Part shown: positions 51,408-61,423 of the stretch, in pieces | How the letters are laid out: each line of letters starts with the position of its first letter | Position numbering within the stretch: position 1 is the first letter of the stretch | Source of the DNA: a bacterium | GTDB lineage: Bacteria; UBA4055 | NCBI GenBank assembly: GCA_029559475.1 | Contig: JAKQBN010000050.1 | Coordinates: 1 to 63,493, forward strand | DNA length: 63,493 nucleotides | Direction: 5' to 3' | Program-made: the position numbers and the translations under genes | Notes under the pieces: model-generated | Database searches by the model: none | What the model saw: the letters and a program-made list of their open reading frames with translations, nothing else | What the model was told of the DNA's origin: nothing

Positions 51408-51958
51408 TGAGCCTTTTAACAATAATACTGACCGCTATAGGCATAAGTCTTGCGATCACAGGCATTAAAATGACGAAATACATTCTGTCGGCGAAAAAAG
51501 AACATTCGCTTCTTGTTTTTGATAATATCGACAAGTGGTACAGATCTGTTGCGGGAAATGAAGATCAAAATATAATTTCCGGCTTCGAGAAAGAGATCGA
51601 CCATATGTTCGAAAAGAAAGTTCTCAAAACCTCGGTCCTCAATTTTACCGATAAATTTATAGCGGATTATTTAGATCACATATCGCTTAACTCAGAAGCT
51701 GAAAATAAAAGCGTCGAATTCGAAAAACTTGCCGGGACCGGTCTTAAAAAAAGCCGCCAGAGCCTGAAGATACTGTCTCTTACCTACGGATACAATTATA
51801 ATCTGGCGAATTATTCCTATCTTAACTACTGGTATATTCTGCGGGGTAATTACAGCCTCTATAATTCAGGTAAAGCTGACTCTGAAGGTAAAAATTATAC
51901 TTTAAAAGACATCAGTGAGCCTTTTGAAATTCTAAGGTATTATTTTAAAGGTAATTAA
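51407..51958 (+). CDS. Small single-pass membrane protein of unknown function
   Basis: 183 residues. One N-terminal helix (LLTIILTAIGISLAITGIKM) is followed by a charged soluble part with several aromatic residues (NYNLANYSYLNYWYIL). I recognise no family. It starts on the last base of the murA stop, so translation is coupled to murA. Its 3' end overlaps the convergent phosphatase gene by 4 nt, leaving no room for a terminator between them. A role in envelope growth next to murA would be natural but is only positional inference. Confidence 0.6.
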   Translation: MSLLTIILTAIGISLAITGIKMTKYILSAKKEHSLLVFDNIDKWYRSVAGNEDQNIISGFEKEIDHMFEKKVLKTSVLNFTDKFIADYLDHISLNSEAENKSVEFEKLAGTGLKKSRQSLKILSLTYGYNYNLANYSYLNYWYILRGNYSLYNSGKADSEGKNYTLKDISEPFEILRYYFKGN

Positions 51959-53121
51959 AAAAGTTTCAATACAACGTGCTTGAGATACTTTTTCTCGATG
52001 ATCTCGGCTATGTCTTTTATGAGCTGAACGCGCATTTTATACTGAAGATCGAAGTGATATTCATTTGATGAAGTTCCCAAAAGGAAAAGTACCGAATCCG
52101 AATTAAGGATCATTTTCACTATCCTCTCCCCTGCTCCGTCTCCCGTTTTATCCGGATCCGCATTATCCCTGAGCATTCTTTCCACTCTTGAAAGTGTCAT
52201 TACTCCTTCAGTGACAAGATCGACATTCTCCATTTTGCTTATCGGCGGGAGGCCGTCGTTCAGATTTATCATAGTGTCTTTGAATTTAAATCCCAGCTCG
52301 CGCGAAATAATATCGGATGTAGTGCCGCCGGAGATAATCTTTTTTCCGTTGAATTCGGCGAACTGCCTTGCAAAGCTGAAGTCCTTTTCTTTCGAAGCGG
52401 GTGCGCCTGAGCAAATAAGCAGCTTTCTCGGCTCTCTGAAATGAACCGATAGTACGCTCGAATCGTCCTTTAAAGTGAATTTATCGTTCATTTCAGCTTT
52501 ATTTACGATCTTTTCGGCTATCACCCTAGCCGATATATCAGGATCTTCTGAAAGTGATTTGAGAATGTATTCCTCAGCGCCTTTTCTCTCCCATTCCACA
52601 TCGAATCCCAGGCCGGACTGAGATACCCCGTCCGTAAAAGCGATTATCCTGTCGCCCGTTCTAGGAATGAACGAAGACAGGTAAATTTTTTTTCCTTTAT
52701 GCTTTTCTCCGGTAAGTTCTATGTAATTCCATCCGGGATCGAATACGGACAGGTTCCTGACTATAACAGGCAACGGGCTGTCGTAAACTATCAGATCGGC
52801 TTTCTCTGAACCTCGGATGTCGATTATAACGAAAGTCGAATAACTGACCCGCCTTTCGCTGCATTCCGGAAGGATGTTCATAATAAGCTCTGAAGCTTCA
52901 GAAATATCTTTATGCTCGGATATGAAATTCAAAGCCATCGAAGCTGTCAGGCTTGCAAGAACATTGGCCTTGATCCCGCTTCCCATTCCGTCCGAAAGGA
53001 CCGCGATCTTCCGGTTCTCTTCTTTTATGTATTTTTTTGTAATGACATCACCGAAAGAATACTGTCCGTTCTTCGATTTCTGAAAATGATCTATATCTGT
53101 AAATATTTCTTTATTTTTCAT
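51955..53121 (-). CDS. SpoIIE/PP2C-type serine phosphatase of the redox-signalling operon
   Basis: 388 residues, no membrane segment. The PP2C metal sites are visible: VLSDGMGSGIKANVLAS near residues 40-58, IIAFTDGVSQSG near 160, and LKDDSSVLSV near 220. The C-terminal 155 residues (from LLICSGAPASKEKDF) form an extra domain that I do not recognise. SpoIIE phosphatases usually dephosphorylate anti-anti-sigma or related proteins, and homologues are known beside [FeFe]-hydrogenase genes. It overlaps the Fe-S/PAS gene by 11 nt, so the two are made together. It is the last gene of the operon. Confidence 0.75.
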   Translation of the reverse strand: MKNKEIFTDIDHFQKSKNGQYSFGDVITKKYIKEENRKIAVLSDGMGSGIKANVLASLTASMALNFISEHKDISEASELIMNILPECSERRVSYSTFVIIDIRGSEKADLIVYDSPLPVIVRNLSVFDPGWNYIELTGEKHKGKKIYLSSFIPRTGDRIIAFTDGVSQSGLGFDVEWERKGAEEYILKSLSEDPDISARVIAEKIVNKAEMNDKFTLKDDSSVLSVHFREPRKLLICSGAPASKEKDFSFARQFAEFNGKKIISGGTTSDIISRELGFKFKDTMINLNDGLPPISKMENVDLVTEGVMTLSRVERMLRDNADPDKTGDGAGERIVKMILNSDSVLFLLGTSSNEYHFDLQYKMRVQLIKDIAEIIEKKYLKHVVLKLF

Positions 53122-54214
53122 TTTCCGACAGAAGCCTTATTACTGAACTTAGAACATTTTCGGTCTTGGATGCGTTCTCACCCAGAAGATATGCGATCTT
53201 CTGCACAGTGTCCAGGTTCTCCCTGATGACATTCTCCGCTCGTTTTCTTACTTCCTCGTTCCTTACGTCCGGCATGCTCAGATCCAGAAAAACTGCGCCT
53301 GCGGTCTTGTTCTTTTCTATTGTAAAAAGCGTGATGTTCATTTTCTTACCGTTGTGAACAACATCTTTTGAGTAAGTGTCCTCGCCGCTTTCCATGAGTG
53401 CGGAAAAAAGCTGGTGATGAGAAAAAACCGATCTGAGGTCGGCACCTTTCAGTCCCGGATTTATCTCTTCGATAACTTCAATATCATCACCCATTAGTTT
53501 GGCGAAAGCGGAATTTGATTCGATGATGGTAAGCCGGTCATCTACGATCACGAATCCTGAAGGCATCTTTTTTAATAGAGATACCGAAAGCTCGGCAGTG
53601 TCTTTTGCGATCGCCAGCTCTCTGCTTCTTTTTACTCTTTCCGTAATATCGAAAAGAACGCTGACAAATCCTGCAGCCGCGCCTGATCTGTCTGTAAAAA
53701 CGGCTTTATGAAGTTCGATCGTTATAGTGTCGCCACCGGGATACTTTACATCAGCCTCGACCACCTGTTTCACGGGGTTTTTCAACAGACTCGCGTTAAG
53801 CTTTTCGTTAAGCTCGTTGTAAAGCTTGTTGTCGGAGTATTCAAACAGCTTCTTGTCCTTTATGTCGAACCTTTTTATTCCGGCTATATCTTCGTAGGCT
53901 TTATTGCATCCTATGGCCCTTCCTTCGATATCCTCATAAAGGATCGGAGCTGGAACGGCATCAAGGATCTCCTGATTTAAAAAGAGGCTGTCCCTTAATT
54001 CTTTCTCTTTTTTCTTGAGTTTTTCGATTATCTTTTTCGAAAGGACTACGCACATCGAAGGCTTTGCAGTACCGTCGAGCATCGCAGCGGCGAATTCCCG
54101 GCATGTTTTATAGCCGCATCCGCCACAGTCGATCTCGTCTGCTTTATCAAAGATCTCGATAAAGGTCAGAGCCTTTTTTATGTCGTTTTCCGAATATGTT
54201 TTATTACCTGCCAT
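53111..54214 (-). CDS. Fe-S cluster/PAS sensor protein
   Basis: 367 residues from ATG 54214, one base after the TAA of the receiver gene; a longer frame reaching 54328 would run inside that gene and is rejected. The N-terminus has a four-Cys cluster, Cys30-x2-Cys33-x4-Cys38 and Cys55 (IDCGGCGYKTC), the 4Fe-4S domain of electron-transfer and hydrogenase proteins. A PAS domain covers about 80-200 (ILDAVPAPILYEDIEGRAIG, ending FDITERVKRSREL). A second PAS covers about 215-330 (KKMPSGFVIVDDRLTIIESN). A helical C-terminus ends the chain, with no kinase or phosphatase domain. The chain probably senses redox state and passes it to the overlapping SpoIIE phosphatase. Confidence 0.75.
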   Translation of the reverse strand: MAGNKTYSENDIKKALTFIEIFDKADEIDCGGCGYKTCREFAAAMLDGTAKPSMCVVLSKKIIEKLKKKEKELRDSLFLNQEILDAVPAPILYEDIEGRAIGCNKAYEDIAGIKRFDIKDKKLFEYSDNKLYNELNEKLNASLLKNPVKQVVEADVKYPGGDTITIELHKAVFTDRSGAAAGFVSVLFDITERVKRSRELAIAKDTAELSVSLLKKMPSGFVIVDDRLTIIESNSAFAKLMGDDIEVIEEINPGLKGADLRSVFSHHQLFSALMESGEDTYSKDVVHNGKKMNITLFTIEKNKTAGAVFLDLSMPDVRNEEVRKRAENVIRENLDTVQKIAYLLGENASKTENVLSSVIRLLSENEK

Positions 54215-54215
54215 A

Positions 54216-54584
54216 TTATTTATTAAGCACTCTGTTAACGAGTGCTGATAATTTTTCAAGATCGACGGGTTTCTGCAAAACGGATTTAACATTCGGGATA
54301 TCGATGTCAAATATCTCCTGTCCCGCATTAGCTATGGATGAAGTTATTATGATCGGTATCGCGACCTTTTCGTCAAGCATCTGCTGAGCGAACACAAAAC
54401 CTTCGTCAGGCTGTTCCATCATTACGTCCACTATCATCAGGTCCGGTGAAAACTCCCTGATCTCTTTTCTTCCAATAGTAGTGTTCAATGCGGTTCTTAT
54501 CTCGTAGCCCTGGCCCTTAAAAAATGCGCTGTAGGCAGTAAGAATATCGGTATCATCGTCAATAAGAAGTATTTTCTTGGCCAT
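54216..54584 (-). CDS. Single-domain response regulator receiver
   Basis: 122 residues, a complete REC domain and nothing else. Acidic pair Asp10-Asp11, phosphoacceptor Asp53 (LMIVDVMMEQPDEGF), Ser/Thr at IITSSIA and Lys in LQKPVD. The sequence after the phosphoacceptor is shared with the REC of the Rex fusion and the receiver at 60976. With no output domain it likely acts as a phosphate carrier or binds a partner. It lies 9 nt after the Rex-REC gene. Confidence 0.85.
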   Translation of the reverse strand: MAKKILLIDDDTDILTAYSAFFKGQGYEIRTALNTTIGRKEIREFSPDLMIVDVMMEQPDEGFVFAQQMLDEKVAIPIIITSSIANAGQEIFDIDIPNVKSVLQKPVDLEKLSALVNRVLNK

Positions 54585-54593
54585 TTATCCCCC

Positions 54594-55598
54594 CTAAATA
54601 TATTTTTTTATTTTTAAGATCAGATCGTCCGGATCGACAGGTTTCTGAAGTATGATCTTGATGTTCAGCTGACTCACATCGAGAACGTTAGAAGTAGCTT
54701 TCGCAATCGAGGACTGGAGTATAACCGGGATATTGATATTTTTTTCCTTCAGTTCGTTCAGGAAAAGGAACCCGGCATCCGGATCCTCCATCATAATGTC
54801 TAAAATTATCAGATCCGGTTTGAACTTCGAGATCATGCTGAATCCTTCTTTCGAGTTCAAAGAGGAAGATACTTCATAACCGTTTTTTTTCAGAATAACT
54901 GTATAAATGTTAACAATGTCGCTGTCATCATCGATAACCAGAATTTTTTTTCCACATTCCTGAGATATTTTTTTCTCGCCCAGCACTTTTGCAAAGTAAG
55001 AAGCTTTTTCCAAAGATGTCGTTATGTCTATCTCTTCAAGAAATGTGTTTTCGGGAAGGTTTAAAGGCGTGGTCGTATAATTGATGATGGCTTTTATTCC
55101 CGATGCTGTCATCTTCTCCGCAATGTCTTTTGCGCTCCTGCTAGATGCCGCGATCATGCCTATGCTTATATTTTCTTCACTGATCTTTTCGCTTAGTCTG
55201 TCAACATGATAGCAGGGCACTCCCATATAATTTTTGCCTATCAGGTTTTCGTCAATATCAAAAAGTGCAGTGATCTTCAACTTTTCGCTTTTATCGTGCA
55301 GGAAATTGACGAGAGCTTTGCCGAGGTTTCCGATACCGACGATGCAGATATTCATGCCGTTCTTCGTATCCATGATTTCACCGATACTGTCCATCACTCC
55401 TTTTGTCTCGTATCCTTTTCTATTATTGCCCGAATATCCGATATACATCAGATCCCTTCTTACCTGAACAGAAGTTACATGCGCCATTTTCGCGAGATCG
55501 TGCGAATAAAAATATCCTGTACCTTCAGTGTATATTTTTTTAAGCAGCCTTCTGTATAACGAAAGCCTCTCTATTGTTTTTCCGTTTATGGGTTCCAT
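54594..55598 (-). CDS. Redox repressor Rex fused to a receiver domain
   Basis: 334 residues, against about 210 for ordinary Rex. Residues 1-75 are the Rex winged helix (DLAKMAHVTSVQVRRDLMYI, then NNRKGY). The Rossmann domain starts at CIVGIGNLGKAL (Gly88-x-Gly90-x2-Gly93), with Asp114 in ALFDIDEN at the adenosine-ribose position typical of NAD(H) binding. After about residue 212 comes a complete receiver: DDD 223-225, phosphoacceptor Asp267 (ILDIMMEDPDAGF) and Lys319 (LQKPVD). Rex normally leaves DNA when NADH/NAD+ rises; a receiver would add phosphorylation as a second input. It lies inside an operon with two histidine kinases and NADH-linked redox subunits, whose promoter has a Rex-like box. 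Confidence 0.9.
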   Translation of the reverse strand: MEPINGKTIERLSLYRRLLKKIYTEGTGYFYSHDLAKMAHVTSVQVRRDLMYIGYSGNNRKGYETKGVMDSIGEIMDTKNGMNICIVGIGNLGKALVNFLHDKSEKLKITALFDIDENLIGKNYMGVPCYHVDRLSEKISEENISIGMIAASSRSAKDIAEKMTASGIKAIINYTTTPLNLPENTFLEEIDITTSLEKASYFAKVLGEKKISQECGKKILVIDDDSDIVNIYTVILKKNGYEVSSSLNSKEGFSMISKFKPDLIILDIMMEDPDAGFLFLNELKEKNINIPVILQSSIAKATSNVLDVSQLNIKIILQKPVDPDDLILKIKKYI

Positions 55599-55603
55599 TT
55601 TTT

Positions 55604-56725
55604 TCAGGCCTGTTGTCTTAGAATAACTGTGAATACCGAACCTTTTCCATATTCGGATTTAACGTCAACGCTTCCGTTGTACAGCGAGATAATCTTTTTG
55701 ACCGTCGAAAGCCCTATCCCGCTGCCGGAAATATTAGCTGTCTTTTCGTTCTTGATCCTAGAAAATTCTTTAAACAGCTTTTCCTGATCTTTTGGCTCGA
55801 TACCGATCCCCGTATCCGCAACTGAGAATTTTAATGATCCGTTATCTGTTCCGAGGAAGACCTTTATCTTTCCGTTATCCACATTATATTTGATCGCGTT
55901 CGATATGAAGTTGTTCACTATTATCTCGATTTCGGTTTTGTCCGAATTAAATTCAATCTCTGACAGCTCTGATTCAACGTTCAGGCTCCTCTTCTGAATT
56001 TCCTCTTTAAAATTGCTCAGAGATTCGTTTACTATCGTATCGATCCTGACGGGAGAAAGAACGCGTTTTTTTTCGCCCGATTCAATCCTGGTAAGGTCGA
56101 GAAGGTCGAAGATCAGTTTTTCCATATCCTTGATCCTTATCTCTGACCGCTTGATAAATTCGTCATAAGCAGCAATATCGTTCCCCGCTATCCTTTTTTC
56201 CATAAGTTTGAGATAATTGCTTATCGCCGCGATCGGCGACTTCAGTTCGTGGGACAAAACTGAAATGAACTCAAATCTGATCTTCTTTTTTTCAGCTTCG
56301 AACTTTTTCGCCGAATTCGTTAAAATAAAATGTTTGGACGCCTTAAGAATAGCATCTTTAAGTTCCTGCGGTGTAAAAGGTTTGGTTAGAAAATCATAAG
56401 CGCCGTTCTTCGTGGCGGTAATGGCTGTTTCGATCGATGCGAATGCCGTTATCATGATCGTAAGAATGTCTCTCTGCGATTCGTGAAGCAGTTTTAAAAG
56501 ATCGACCCCGTGCATTCCGGGAAGCTGGTTGTCGAGAAGCAGAATGTCGTACTGCTTCGTTTTCATCATTTCGAGCCCGATCTCCGCGGTCTCCGCGACA
56601 TCCACAGTAAAGGCGTAATCAGACTCGATATAGCTAAGGCTCATCTTGAAATTCCTTAAAGCTCTCTTAATCGATTCTCTGATACCCTCTTCATCATCAA
56701 TGACCAATATGCTGATCTCATCCAT
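55604..56725 (-). CDS. Receiver-histidine kinase hybrid
   Basis: 373 residues, cytoplasmic. Receiver about 1-130 with phosphoacceptor Asp65 (LLLDNQLPG) and Lys115 in FLTKPF. The HisKA domain has phospho-acceptor His159 (SVLSHELKSPIAAI). The HATPase has NNFISNAIKYN, DTGIGIEP and GSGIGLSTVKK. A receiver at the N-terminus controlling a kinase is typical of phosphorelays without a membrane sensor. Five nt separate it from the Rex-REC gene. Candidate targets are the Rex receiver and the two free receivers of the same operon. Confidence 0.85.
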   Translation of the reverse strand: MDEISILVIDDEEGIRESIKRALRNFKMSLSYIESDYAFTVDVAETAEIGLEMMKTKQYDILLLDNQLPGMHGVDLLKLLHESQRDILTIMITAFASIETAITATKNGAYDFLTKPFTPQELKDAILKASKHFILTNSAKKFEAEKKKIRFEFISVLSHELKSPIAAISNYLKLMEKRIAGNDIAAYDEFIKRSEIRIKDMEKLIFDLLDLTRIESGEKKRVLSPVRIDTIVNESLSNFKEEIQKRSLNVESELSEIEFNSDKTEIEIIVNNFISNAIKYNVDNGKIKVFLGTDNGSLKFSVADTGIGIEPKDQEKLFKEFSRIKNEKTANISGSGIGLSTVKKIISLYNGSVDVKSEYGKGSVFTVILRQQA

Positions 56726-56736
56726 CTTCTATCCTT

Positions 56737-58632
56737 CTATTCGGGGTTTTTAGGCAGTGTCACGATAAATCTCGCGAAAGTATTGCCTTTTGATTTATCC
56801 GCGTTCGACTCTACGATTATTTTTCCTCTGTGCATCTTTATAATTCCATAGACTACCGCGAGGCCAAGGCCAGTTCCTTTGCCCATTTGTTTGGTCGAGA
56901 AGAAAGGTTCGAAAAGCTTCTTCTGATTTTCTTCGGTGATGCCGGGACCGTTATCTTCGTGTATAAATATCACGGCCTGCTTGTCGATGCCTGTCGATAT
57001 TCTGATCTCACCGTTCGATTTCATAGCATCCACAGAGTTATTGATGAAATTAACGAACACCTGGATCATCTGGCTTTCATCCATGGGGACTTCAAAGGCA
57101 GGATCTTCGTGTGTTATCAGCAGATTAACCGTTTTAGGCAGAATAACGCTTCTTTTCAAATTGTCAAAAAAGCTGTCGAGCCTGACTTTTGTTTTGTTCA
57201 CTTCGTTCTTACGGGCGAAATTCAAAAGCCCCGACAGTATAGTTTTACATCTTCCTGCCTGCGTGGCAATAGTATCAAGGTCTTTATAAATCTCTGAATT
57301 CGGGTCGCATTCATCCTTAAGAATGTTGCTGTACATAAGAACGACTCCGAGCGGGTTATTGACTTCGTGCGCTATCCCTGCCGAAAGCTGGCCCATCGTG
57401 GCTAGTTTTTCTGAGTGTTTAAGCGCGTCCTGCATTGTCGCAAGTTCCAGATCTCTTGTTTCAAGAGCCTGAAGATAGCCATGGAATCTTTCTATAGTGA
57501 CGAAATATACTATTACGGATATAACAAGCACTACAAGAAGGCTCAAAAGTAAAGAAGCAAGGATAAGGTTCCTTATCAGATCAGCGGTCTCTTCGCTTTC
57601 ATTGACGGCGGCGCATATGTAAAAATCAAAATCCCTAAAATAATCGTAAGCTATTATTTTTTCCTCGTTATCGACCTCGGATACGAATCTTTTTACGTGC
57701 GACTGATCCTTTAACAGCTCTTCTTTTTCGCTCATTATGGTCTTAATTATGCTCATGTTCTCCCAGTCATAGCCCCTGTCATTATGGTTAATTACCATTT
57801 TAGCCGAACCGTCGAACACGAATGGATACCCGGATTTTCCGATCTTGAGCTCACGAAATTTACTTGCAAGCTCGGGGAGGTCTTTTTCTTTAGAGCCGAC
57901 AAAGAGCATGCCTACGATCTCGCCTTCCTCATCCCGGATCGCACTGTATCCGGTTATATAGTATTCGTTAACGACAGGGAGCCTTCCGAAAAAGTCTTTT
58001 CCGTCGTAAAACGCGTTTGAAATGCCAGAGTAATTGGGTGAATCGAATCCGATAAAAGTGCCTACCGCCCTGTTGCCGTCATTGTTTGTGACATTAGTTG
58101 ATATTCTGATAAAACCTTTTTCGGTTTTCTGGAAAACAGTAGCCTGGCAGCCTAGAGTGGACTTGATCTTGTCCACGAAGTCATAATTATAGTGAAGTTC
58201 CTTTTTATTTAAAAACCATTTTCTGACCTCGATATCCTCAAGATATTTACCTTTATCGTTAAAAATTGAGAATTTAATTTTCTCTTTCGATATCTGAAAT
58301 CCTTTCTGGTAGAAGAGTTCCTTACTTATCCTCAGATTTTTCTGGGCGTGTTCAGTTTTGAGCTCGTATTCTCTCTCGAACATCTTCATAAGGGACTGAA
58401 CTTCAAGGCTCAGATAATTTTCGATCGAGTCGTATATGTTCTTTTTTGAGAGATAGACCGAGAAGAAAGTCATCGCCGAAACTGAAAAGACGATTATCAA
58501 AAGTATCGGAACGAATATCTTGAGTTTTGCCTTGAAGTTATGAAGTCTTTTGTTAAAAAACCTCTTAACTTTCTTCATCTGTTTATCCGTCTGGAAAAAC
58601 AGATCGTTCGGGATAACCGTCTTGTTATTCAT
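56737..58632 (-). CDS. Membrane sensor histidine kinase with double Cache domain
   Basis: 631 residues. Transmembrane helices at about 39-60 and 356-379 enclose an extracytoplasmic region of about 295 residues with a Cache3-Cache2 look (FFGRLPVVNEYYITGYSAI, then GEIVGMLFVGSKE and IGKSGYPFVFDG). No HAMP is obvious after the second helix. HisKA carries His422 (SAGIAHEVNNPLGVV). The HATPase has INNSVDAM, DNGPGI and GKGTGLGLAVVYGI. It has no receiver, so it must act through a separate one. Its start overlaps the NuoE-like gene by 8 nt. Confidence 0.85.
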   Translation of the reverse strand: MNNKTVIPNDLFFQTDKQMKKVKRFFNKRLHNFKAKLKIFVPILLIIVFSVSAMTFFSVYLSKKNIYDSIENYLSLEVQSLMKMFEREYELKTEHAQKNLRISKELFYQKGFQISKEKIKFSIFNDKGKYLEDIEVRKWFLNKKELHYNYDFVDKIKSTLGCQATVFQKTEKGFIRISTNVTNNDGNRAVGTFIGFDSPNYSGISNAFYDGKDFFGRLPVVNEYYITGYSAIRDEEGEIVGMLFVGSKEKDLPELASKFRELKIGKSGYPFVFDGSAKMVINHNDRGYDWENMSIIKTIMSEKEELLKDQSHVKRFVSEVDNEEKIIAYDYFRDFDFYICAAVNESEETADLIRNLILASLLLSLLVVLVISVIVYFVTIERFHGYLQALETRDLELATMQDALKHSEKLATMGQLSAGIAHEVNNPLGVVLMYSNILKDECDPNSEIYKDLDTIATQAGRCKTILSGLLNFARKNEVNKTKVRLDSFFDNLKRSVILPKTVNLLITHEDPAFEVPMDESQMIQVFVNFINNSVDAMKSNGEIRISTGIDKQAVIFIHEDNGPGITEENQKKLFEPFFSTKQMGKGTGLGLAVVYGIIKMHRGKIIVESNADKSKGNTFARFIVTLPKNPE

Positions 58633-59101
58633 ATTCTTTAATTATTTTCGCGACTTCTTCCGGTTTTACGCTGCCGTATACTTTTTCTCCGATCATTATT
58701 ACCGGGGCGAGACCGCAGGCTCCAATGCATCTTAATGTATTCATGGAGAATTTTCCGTCGGGAGTGGTCTGACCGTTTTTTATCTCAAGCTGCTTTTCAA
58801 ATTCCTTCAGAACTTTTTCCGCGCCTTTAACATAGCAGGCTGTTCCCATACATATCGAAATGGGATACTTACCCTTAGGTTCCATAGTAAAATATGAATA
58901 AAAAGTTATTACGCCGTATACCTTTGATGCCGGAATGTGTATAGTCTCCGCTATCGCAGTCTGAACTTCTTTAGGCAGAAATCCGAAATGGTTCTGGGAT
59001 TTGTGAAGTATGGCGATAAGTTCTTTCGGGTCGTTGTTGAATTCTTTACAGATCTCGGCGACTTTTTCTTTTATTTCCTTTTCTTTTATTGCACAGGCCA
59101 T
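58625..59101 (-). CDS. NuoE-like [2Fe-2S] subunit (HydC/HndA type)
   Basis: 158 residues. The thioredoxin-like [2Fe-2S] site is complete: Cys84 and Cys89 (CMGTAC), Cys125 and Cys129 (LRCIGACG). The helical N-terminus KSQNHFGFLPKEVQ and VYGVITFYSYF are standard for the 24-kDa subunit. In bifurcating [FeFe]-hydrogenases and NADH-dependent formate dehydrogenases this subunit forms a unit with the NuoF-like protein encoded 18 nt upstream. It overlaps the next kinase gene by 8 nt. The catalytic partner is not in the window. Confidence 0.9.
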   Translation of the reverse strand: MACAIKEKEIKEKVAEICKEFNNDPKELIAILHKSQNHFGFLPKEVQTAIAETIHIPASKVYGVITFYSYFTMEPKGKYPISICMGTACYVKGAEKVLKEFEKQLEIKNGQTTPDGKFSMNTLRCIGACGLAPVIMIGEKVYGSVKPEEVAKIIKEYE

Positions 59102-59119: not shown

Positions 59120-60580
59120 TTACTCTATTATTATCGCATTGAATTTACATTTCTGATAGCAGGCTCCGCATTTAATACATTTGTCCTGATCTATCAGATG
59201 CTTCTGCTTGATCTCGCCTGAGATAGCTTCAGCCGGACAGGCTCTTTTACATGCTCCGCATCCTACGCATTTGTCGGGTATGATAATGTATTTTATAAGT
59301 GCTCTGCAGACTTTCGCGCGGCATTTTTTTTCTACAACATGCTCGTAATATTCATCATAAAAATTATTCAGAGTAGAAAGGACAGGATTAGGCGCGGTCT
59401 GTCCCAGTCCGCATAGAGAAGTTGATTTGATGATTTCTGAAAGGTCTTTGAGTTTTTTAAGATCTTCGAGAGTTCCATTTCCGTGAGTGATCTTATTAAG
59501 TATCTGATAAAGAACTTTGTTGCCTTCTCTGCAGGGAACGCATTTTCCGCAGCTTTCCTCCACGGTAAAATCAAGATAGAACTGAGCTACGGCAGGCATA
59601 CAGTTGTCTTCATCCATTACGATAAGACCGCCCGAACCCATCATCGATCCTGCGGCCTTGAGGCTTTCATAATCTATCGGAGTATCCAGATGTTTTTCGG
59701 TCAGACATCCGCCGGACGGTCCGCCTGTCTGCGCGGCTTTGAATTTTTTGCCGCCGACTATCCCGCCGCCGATATCGAAAATAAGTTCTCTTAATGTCGT
59801 TCCCATCGGCACTTCGACAAGACCGACATTTTTAACTTTTCCCGCAAGCGCGAAAACTTTGGTGCCTTTAGACCCTTCGGTTCCGATAGATGCGAACCAG
59901 TCCGCGCCTTTGTTTATGATCGCGGGAATGTTCGCGAAAGTCTCCACGTTGTTCACGTTCGTCGGTTTTCCCATGAATCCTTTTTGAGCAGGATACGGAG
60001 GTTTCATTATAGGTTCACCCCTGTTCCCTTCCATAGATTTTATAAGTGCTGTCTCTTCGCCGCACACAAAAGCCCCGGCGCCGTATTTTAAACCTATCTC
60101 GAAATTGAAACCGGTACCGAGTATGTTCTGACCCAGAAGGCCGGCTTCTTTAGCCTGAGCCATCGCTATTTTCAGCCTTTTTATCGCCAGAGGATATTCA
60201 GCGCGGATGTAGATATATCCCTCGTCAGCTCCGATAGCGTATCCGCAGACAGCCATCGCTTCGAGGACCGAATGGGGATCGCCTTCGAGGACGGATCTGT
60301 CCATGAAAGCTCCGGGATCGCCTTCATCAGCATTGCAGATGACATATTTCTTGTCTCCCTTAACAGCAGCTGCAAGCTCCCATTTTTTTCCGGTTGGAAA
60401 TCCGCCGCCGCCTCTTCCTCTGAGGCCGGATTTTATAATTGTTTGAACAACTGTTTCTCTCGAACCGCTGAGCGTAGTGCTCAAGGCTTTGTAGCCGTCT
60501 CTTGCGATGTAATCTGACAGATCCTCCGGATCGATATGACCGCAGTTACGTAAAGCTATCTTAATCTGTTTACTTTTCAT
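59120..60580 (-). CDS. NuoF-like flavoprotein with ferredoxin tail (HydB/HndC type)
   Basis: 486 residues. FMN loop [16 protein letters not shown] (52-67), then [11 protein letters not shown] and [12 protein letters not shown] for NADH. The 4Fe-4S site is formed by [10 protein letters not shown] near 340 and LCGLGQ. The C-terminal tail holds two ferredoxin clusters: Cys438/441/444/448 and Cys468/471/474/478. That tail distinguishes hydrogenase- or formate-dehydrogenase-linked HydB/HndC from Nuo complex I. The N-terminal thioredoxin-like domain found in many HydB proteins is absent and is encoded as a separate gene 2 nt upstream. It probably carries out NAD(P)H oxidation or reduction in the cytoplasm. 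Confidence 0.9.
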
Positions 60581-60582
60581 AT

Positions 60583-60942
60583 TTAATTTTCCTCTATGAC
60601 GCCGTCGATTAGTTTTCCGTTCTTGATGTATTCATCTATTATCAGTTTCGCTCTTTTAGTATCCACTTTTCCGAAAACTACAGGTCCCGATCCGGGTAAG
60701 ACTACTTCAACAGTAGGTTCGGAATGGCACAAACCGAGACAGCCGGTAGGTTTTATGACGAACTCAACAGGCTGTTTTGGCATTTCCTCTTTAAAATACT
60801 CCAGGACTTTAGCTGAGCCAGATGCAATGCTGCAGGTAGCCATGGCTATATATATCCTGACCTTCTTTTCGTTTTCGGCCTCTTTAACTTTCAGTTCCTG
60901 TCTTAATGACTCGAATTCACCGAAATTTTTCAACTGTTTCAT
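60583..60942 (-). CDS. HndB-like thioredoxin-fold [2Fe-2S] protein
   Basis: 119 residues. The Cys pattern is [11 protein letters not shown] (Cys37) and [11 protein letters not shown] (Cys68, Cys72); a fourth Cys of the usual thioredoxin-like ferredoxin is not seen. The second half KPTGCLGLC is identical in layout to HndB and the N-terminal domain of HydB. It probably passes electrons between the NuoF-like subunit and its partner. It stops 2 nt before the nuoF-like start, whose ribosome binding site lies in its last codons. Confidence 0.8.
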
Positions 60943-60975: not shown

Positions 60976-61350
60976 CTAGTTACCCGAAGCAAGTTTTTTT
61001 ACATTCGCTACAAGTTTTTCCAGATCGACCGGTTTCTGCATTATGATCCTTGCTCCCAGGTCTGAAATGTCGAAATTCATCTGGCTAGCTTTTGCGATAG
61101 AAGAGCACAGAATAACGGGAGTATTCAGGTTCTTTTCCTTCATTTCGCTTAAAAATTCAAATCCCGAGTCCGGAGATTCCATCATAACGTCAAGGATCAC
61201 GACATCGGGTTTCTCATTCTCAAGTTTTGTCATCCCTTCTTTTCCAGTAGTTGCGGAAATAACTTCAATTCCGTCAGCTTCAAGAACTGCTTTGTAGGCT
61301 ACGATAAAATCGATGCCGTCGTCGATGATCAGCGCTTTTGTTTTACTCAT
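60976..61350 (-). CDS. Single-domain receiver, first gene of the redox-signalling operon
   Basis: 124 residues from ATG 61350, 5 nt after a strong GGAGG; a TTG at 61362 overlaps that site and is rejected. REC features: Asp-Asp near 10-11, phosphoacceptor in VVILDVMMESPDSGFEF near 54, LCSSIAKA and MQKPVD. It shares with the Rex receiver and the receiver at 54216 an extended MME-PD-GF signature, so the three form one subfamily. There is no output domain. Being first in the operon, it is directly under the promoter with the Rex-like box. Confidence 0.85.
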   Translation of the reverse strand: MSKTKALIIDDGIDFIVAYKAVLEADGIEVISATTGKEGMTKLENEKPDVVILDVMMESPDSGFEFLSEMKEKNLNTPVILCSSIAKASQMNFDISDLGARIIMQKPVDLEKLVANVKKLASGN

Positions 61351-61386: not shown

Positions 61387-61404
61387 CTGTTACAAATTTA
61401 ACAA
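61387..61404 (-). promoter_or_regulatory. Candidate Rex operator
   Basis: An imperfect palindrome that agrees with the clostridial/Thermotogales-type Rex consensus TTGTTAANNNNTTAACAA at 12 of 14 fixed positions (TGTTA at 61388-61392, TTAACAA at 61398-61404). It covers the -10 box of the operon that encodes the Rex fusion. Confidence 0.6.
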
Positions 61405-61423
61405 ATAAAAAATGCTATGTCAA
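61395..61423 (-). promoter_or_regulatory. Sigma-70 promoter of the redox-signalling operon
   Basis: Minus strand TTGACA (61423-61418), 17 bp, TAAATT (61400-61395). It is a consensus -35 with the same -10 as secG and phoH. Confidence 0.75.

Follow-up and report, generated by a model that had tools for sequence, protein, structure and literature searches.

A conserved fusion of a Rex repressor to a receiver domain in an operon encoding a diaphorase and signalling proteins

Organization of the locus

The window is the whole stretch of DNA analysed (63,493 nucleotides), and its minus strand carries the operon listed in Table 1. The genes are arranged in the order REC1, [2Fe-2S] protein, NuoF-like subunit, NuoE-like subunit, kinase, receiver-kinase, Rex-receiver, REC2, FeS-PAS protein and SpoIIE phosphatase. 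This order is kept in the relatives where contigs are long enough, genome G006 being the exception. The two histidine kinases lie immediately upstream of the Rex-receiver gene and are retained in the relatives; of the "two kinases" of a first-pass annotation, one is a membrane kinase with a Cache domain and the other a receiver-kinase hybrid. Residues 379-631 of the membrane kinase are 46-60% identical to the kinase part of sensory-hydrogenase kinases. The FeS-PAS protein probably starts near 54214, since the start of its orthologs corresponds to about residue 39-43 of the 405-aa open reading frame; the frame at 53111-54328 is probably overlong by the longest-ORF rule, and the ortholog start lies just after the REC2 stop. 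Two relatives (L064 8985-10070, L066 7221-8300) have an extra gene of ~360 aa between REC1 and the [2Fe-2S] gene, which in L066 encodes a member of the iron-containing alcohol dehydrogenase family.

Table 1. Features of the Rex-receiver operon, with positions in the window.
Feature	Position	Strand	Basis or remark
Operon promoter	61395..61423	minus	Aligned with seven orthologous promoters
Putative Rex-type operator TTGTTAAATTTGTAACAG (minus-strand sequence)	61387..61404	none	Overlaps the promoter's -10 box
REC1, single-domain receiver, first operon gene	60976..61350	minus	Pfam and synteny; ATG 61350 after GGAGG
Thioredoxin-like [2Fe-2S] protein	60583..60942	minus	Weak Pfam match and conserved operon place
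NuoF-like FMN/NADH and ferredoxin-domain diaphorase subunit	59120..60580	minus	Pfam, NCBIfam
NuoE-like [2Fe-2S] subunit	58625..59101	minus	Pfam, NCBIfam
Membrane histidine kinase, Cache3/Cache2 sensor	56737..58632	minus	Pfam, synteny, kinase comparison
Receiver-histidine kinase hybrid	55604..56725	minus	Pfam
Rex-receiver fusion gene, 334 aa	54594..55598	minus	Pfam, NCBIfam, solved-structure matches, ortholog alignment
Rex part, residues 1-204	54987..55598	minus	Rex model, solved structures, residue alignment
Receiver domain, residues 217-333	54600..54950	minus	Pfam and residue alignment
REC2, single-domain receiver	54216..54584	minus	Pfam and synteny
FeS-PAS sensor protein	53111..54214	minus	Pfam and synteny
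SpoIIE-type (PP2C) phosphatase, final gene in the conserved block	51955..53121	minus	Pfam and synteny

No match to PF02906 ([FeFe] hydrogenase) was found in the source genome, nor in G005 and G009, and the locus was accordingly rejected as a hydrogenase operon in the source genome. Since G005 and G009 have the same operon without a detectable [FeFe] hydrogenase, the operon does not need one, and the diaphorase must have another partner or act alone. Two formate-dehydrogenase-like genes are present elsewhere in the source genome. These encode molybdopterin oxidoreductases (L147, G000 contig C17, 6337-9021 and 12778-15468), and each has one in-frame TGA, possibly for selenocysteine. The first is preceded by a 575-aa gene resembling a fused NuoE/NuoF.

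The Rex-receiver gene and its conserved residues

The open reading frame begins with ATG at 55598, has its stop at 54594-54596 and runs through 334 codons without internal stop. Its product is the sole Rex found in the source genome, and comprises a winged helix (residues ~7-63), a Rossmann domain (~81-188), a swapped-helix region (~191-204), a linker of ~12 residues with variable sequence (205-216) and the receiver. Pfam matches were obtained to Put_DNA-bind_N at 7-50 (2e-12), CoA_binding at 83-176 (8e-19) and Response_reg (PF00072) at 219-330 (4e-19). The NCBIfam Rex models NF003995 (residues 3-204) and NF003996 scored 187.3 and 159.8 bits against cut-offs of 126 and 138. Among solved structures, Rex proteins matched at 7-204 (1e-32) and receivers at 216-332. 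The NF003995 match and the Rex structures show that the Rex part extends through the typical C-terminal helix region, and the E-values of the Pfam, NCBIfam and structure matches rule out a chance domain match. The full Rex and receiver matches bear out the first-pass annotation, which had described a Rex fused to a complete receiver with Asp267 and Lys319; both residues are at these positions and are invariant among the orthologs. Structure prediction gave a mean pLDDT of 38 for the protein alone and 56 with receiver homologs, the Rex part being unusable; too few sequences were usable in the alignment, and domain contacts cannot be judged from these models.

Residues were compared in nine full-length fused proteins, the source protein included. 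All active-site residues of the receiver are invariant (D223/D224/D225, D267, S296 and K319), as is S297. On the Rex side G88, G90 and G93 of the GxGxxG motif at 88-93, A95, the acidic residue after beta-2 (D114) and R47/R48 of the recognition helix are invariant. The equivalent residues of GBS Rex, Arg50/Arg51, contact operator guanines (PMC8376106). Also invariant are R17 and D191, corresponding to Arg16 and Asp188 of T-Rex. The position of T-Rex Tyr98 is occupied by Phe99 in eight of the nine proteins and by Tyr in that of G006. Phe at this position is also found in unfused Rex of the phylum and in some hydrogenase-linked Rex elsewhere; canonical Rex sampled from other phyla nearly always has Tyr there. 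Deviations from the Arg16/Tyr98/Asp188 switch also occur in accepted Rex proteins, as with Met18 in T. maritima. In NADH-bound T-Rex the Tyr98 hydroxyl bonds Asp188 (PMC6125430); as Phe99 has no such hydroxyl, redox gating may be altered, and with it the control of the fused Rex by NADH. Residue C129 of the source Rex, a site shared with L071-L076 and L106-L111, is an invariant Cys in the hydrogenase-linked Rex subfamily and mostly Ile/Val in canonical Rex. It is possible that this Cys provides an extra redox or metal site.

Distribution and phylogeny

The phylum, which is little known, was sampled with 13 genomes, all of one family. Full-length Rex-receiver fusions were found in eight genomes other than the source, with 51-80% identity, and in a further one (G008) the fusion gene is interrupted by the contig edge. 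Against the two nearest relatives dN was 0.14 for Rex, 0.11-0.14 for the receiver and 0.7-0.8 for the linker, with dS saturated. The low values in both domains and the high value in the linker indicate that Rex and receiver are maintained by purifying selection and that only the linker is free to vary. The domain-architecture search suggested at first pass detected the fusion in this phylum only: none was found in more than 600 outside genomes (386 genomes from ~256 families plus, for two other phyla, sets of 245 and 39, with some overlap). No place in plasmid records covered 80% of the protein, and viral contigs scanned with the fusion alignment had no such fusion. A wide occurrence elsewhere was rejected by these genome, plasmid and viral-contig searches. 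The first-pass annotation knew of no characterised Rex with a receiver, and no description was found in the searched open-licence literature either. The Rex-receiver is a real, conserved fusion.

In the Rex tree the fused proteins fall in one clade (99/95), which includes the unfused Rex of G004; the latter pairs with the fused Rex of G006 (100/99). This topology would fit either a single fusion that was later lost in G004 or two separate fusions; no receiver remnant was seen behind the unfused G004 gene. The sister clade of the fused clade consists of the remaining unfused Rex paralogs of the phylum; next come unfused Rex from other families and phyla, several of them encoded beside hydrogenase genes. 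One unfused Rex beside hydA in G012 (L076 5133-5792) has Q and S for two glycines of GxGxxG, and with this motif lost it may not bind NAD. In the receiver tree the fused receivers fall outside the REC1 and REC2 groups, and the donor receiver is not resolved.

In G006, which represents a sister lineage, the Rex-receiver gene comes after a sensory-[FeFe]-hydrogenase histidine kinase and the receiver-kinase. This genome has two sensory-hydrogenase-like clusters (L078 5232-7834, L067 1725-3737), one with the Rex-receiver and the other with receiver, FeS-PAS and SpoIIE genes. In three loci of other phyla (L107, L109 and L111) NuoE, NuoF, a gene of hydrogenase size and a related kinase come after an unfused Rex; for L107 and L111 the gene of hydrogenase size was identified as an [FeFe] hydrogenase. 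The L107 kinase has a sensory hydrogenase domain, and behind it lie a separate receiver and the receiver-kinase; the order in L111 is the same. The kinase core of the source operon is related to these kinases, with the Cache sensor replacing the hydrogenase sensor.

Promoter and Rex-type operators

The operon promoter consists of a -35 box TTGACA (61418-61423), a 17-base spacer and a -10 box TAAATT (61395-61400). Upstream of REC1 eight genomes have in common TTGAC, the spacer and TAAATT or TATATT, and in all eight the palindrome TTGTTAwATTTGTAACAG spans the -10 box. Downstream of the -10 box, the right-hand half of the palindrome (TAAC) is kept in the eight genomes, and the neighbouring bases vary. 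The published Rex consensus operator is TTGTGAANNNNTTCACAA (PMC6391272). Five copies of TGTTA-N6-TAACA are present in the source genome, of which that at the operon promoter is the only intergenic one and four lie inside genes; no strict Rex-site match outside the operon is intergenic. A window-wide scan allowing two mismatches found 7 sites against 4.9 expected, which taken alone is no better than chance, and the case for the operator therefore rests on position and conservation. On these grounds the Rex-receiver probably controls its own operon of redox enzymes and kinases. In G006, where the operon is a different one, a zero-mismatch Rex site TTGTGATTAATATAACAA is located 39 bases before the Rex-receiver gene; a site with at most one mismatch is expected in 1.2% of random 410-base windows. 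The hydA promoters of G001, G002 and G008 carry the near-consensus sites TCGTGAAAAAATTCACAA or ATGTGAAAAAAATCACAA, and no Rex besides the fusion was found in these three genomes. The [FeFe]-hydrogenase promoter is probably part of the Rex-receiver regulon in the relatives having the hydrogenase.

Proposed function of the Rex-receiver

Rex is the textbook one-component NADH sensor; in other Rex proteins rising NADH closes the dimer, which releases the DNA. The first-pass annotation had proposed that the fused repressor integrates redox state with phosphorylation by the kinases of its operon. This proposal is supported by the domain architecture, the intact functional residues, the kinases encoded in the operon and the conservation of a Rex-type operator at its promoter, and it appears likely from the sequences that the Rex-receiver is an autoregulatory, dual-input repressor controlled by both NADH and phosphorylation. 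The Rex part would block transcription of its own operon by binding the palindrome that spans the -10 box, and rising NADH would close the dimer so that DNA is released; the operon controlled in this way would make the NADH-linked diaphorase and signalling proteins. The C-terminal helix of Rex is swapped into the partner subunit, and a displacement of this helix when NADH binds moves the DNA-binding domains (PMC6125430, PMC8063818). In the fusion the swapped helix would reach into the partner subunit and transmit the redox change, and the receiver, hung by the short linker on the end of this helix, would be placed to bias the redox switch. The phosphate on Asp267 would most likely come from the receiver-kinase hybrid, the membrane kinase or both, and phosphorylation there would reset the DNA affinity or the NADH sensitivity; the sequence gives no direction for this effect. 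The analysis establishes the architecture of the protein, its conservation, the synteny and the operator-like sites; DNA binding, a response to NADH, phosphotransfer and an effect of phosphorylation in one direction or the other are what we infer for this protein. Two observations speak against the dual-input reading, namely that REC1 and REC2 could be the real kinase targets and that Phe99 replaces Tyr98 in most of the fused proteins. REC1 and REC2 may also compete with the Rex-receiver for the same phosphoryl groups.

The receiver could instead be a phosphate sink, or a docking module that brings Rex to the kinase or diaphorase proteins, with Rex responding to NADH only. The two additional single-domain receivers make a distribution of phosphate among receivers plausible, and the linker is short and variable; we nevertheless regard this reading as unlikely, as the fused receivers are distinct from the REC1 and REC2 groups and every switch residue is kept, including S296 and K319, residues that docking alone would not require. 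It is also unlikely that Rex has lost its NADH control and is now the mere output domain of a kinase-driven response regulator. Such a loss would agree with Phe at a position where Tyr is near universal in sampled canonical Rex, but GxGxxG, Arg17, Ala95, D114 and Asp191 do not vary among the fused proteins, the G006 protein has Tyr, and Phe is not tied to the fusion since it also occurs in the unfused paralogs, which have no receiver. A misassembly or a frameshift joining two genes, the latter named at first pass as what would overturn the annotation, is refuted by the same fusion in eight other, independently assembled genomes and by the dN pattern of purifying selection on both domains, and can be dismissed as vanishingly improbable.

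The occurrence of separate Rex, receiver and sensory-hydrogenase kinase genes in one operon elsewhere provides a Rosetta-stone argument for the dual-input reading. It may be, and we propose this tentatively, that the fusion is the missing output of an H2/redox sensory pathway, in which the kinase phosphorylates a receiver within the NADH-sensing repressor. The kinase would be the sensory [FeFe]-hydrogenase kinase, or the Cache kinase replacing it in the source lineage, and a single DNA-binding protein would combine NADH with H2 or an external signal. Other phyla, with their separate genes, would show this pathway as it was before fusion. How signal transduction works has been raised as a question for one class of sensory [FeFe]-hydrogenases (PMC8163306), and the most interesting implication of the fusion is that it would indicate a concrete output for these enzymes. 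If the dual-input reading is true, a conserved Rex wired directly into a kinase pathway would integrate two signals in compact form, as a single DNA-binding protein that could bring metabolic state and kinase signalling together. Since only a single protein, palindrome and aspartate are involved, the prediction can be tested in vitro.

Comparison with known systems

With the Rex repressors (NF003995; Rex of B. subtilis, S. agalactiae and T. maritima, and T-Rex) the fusion shares the winged helix, the Rossmann domain with GxGxxG, the recognition arginines, the swapped-helix region and a predicted palindromic operator of the Rex type, as well as likely autoregulation and likely control of hydrogenase/NADH genes. 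It differs from them in its C-terminal receiver and in its wing (NNRKGY), and from most canonical Rex in having Phe for Tyr98 (in most fused proteins) and C129 for Ile/Val, the latter as in hydrogenase-linked Rex. A complete receiver (Asp267), linked kinases and a DNA-binding part are shared with response regulators of the OmpR, NarL and NtrC types; unlike in these, the receiver sits at the C-terminus, and a repressor that itself senses a ligand serves as the output domain. The operons of sensory [FeFe]-hydrogenases (group C/D, HydS) have in common with the source operon related kinase cores, the receiver-kinase, Rex, a NuoEF-type diaphorase and FeS and PAS parts, whereas in the source operon a Cache domain takes the place of the hydrogenase sensor and the receiver is fused to Rex.
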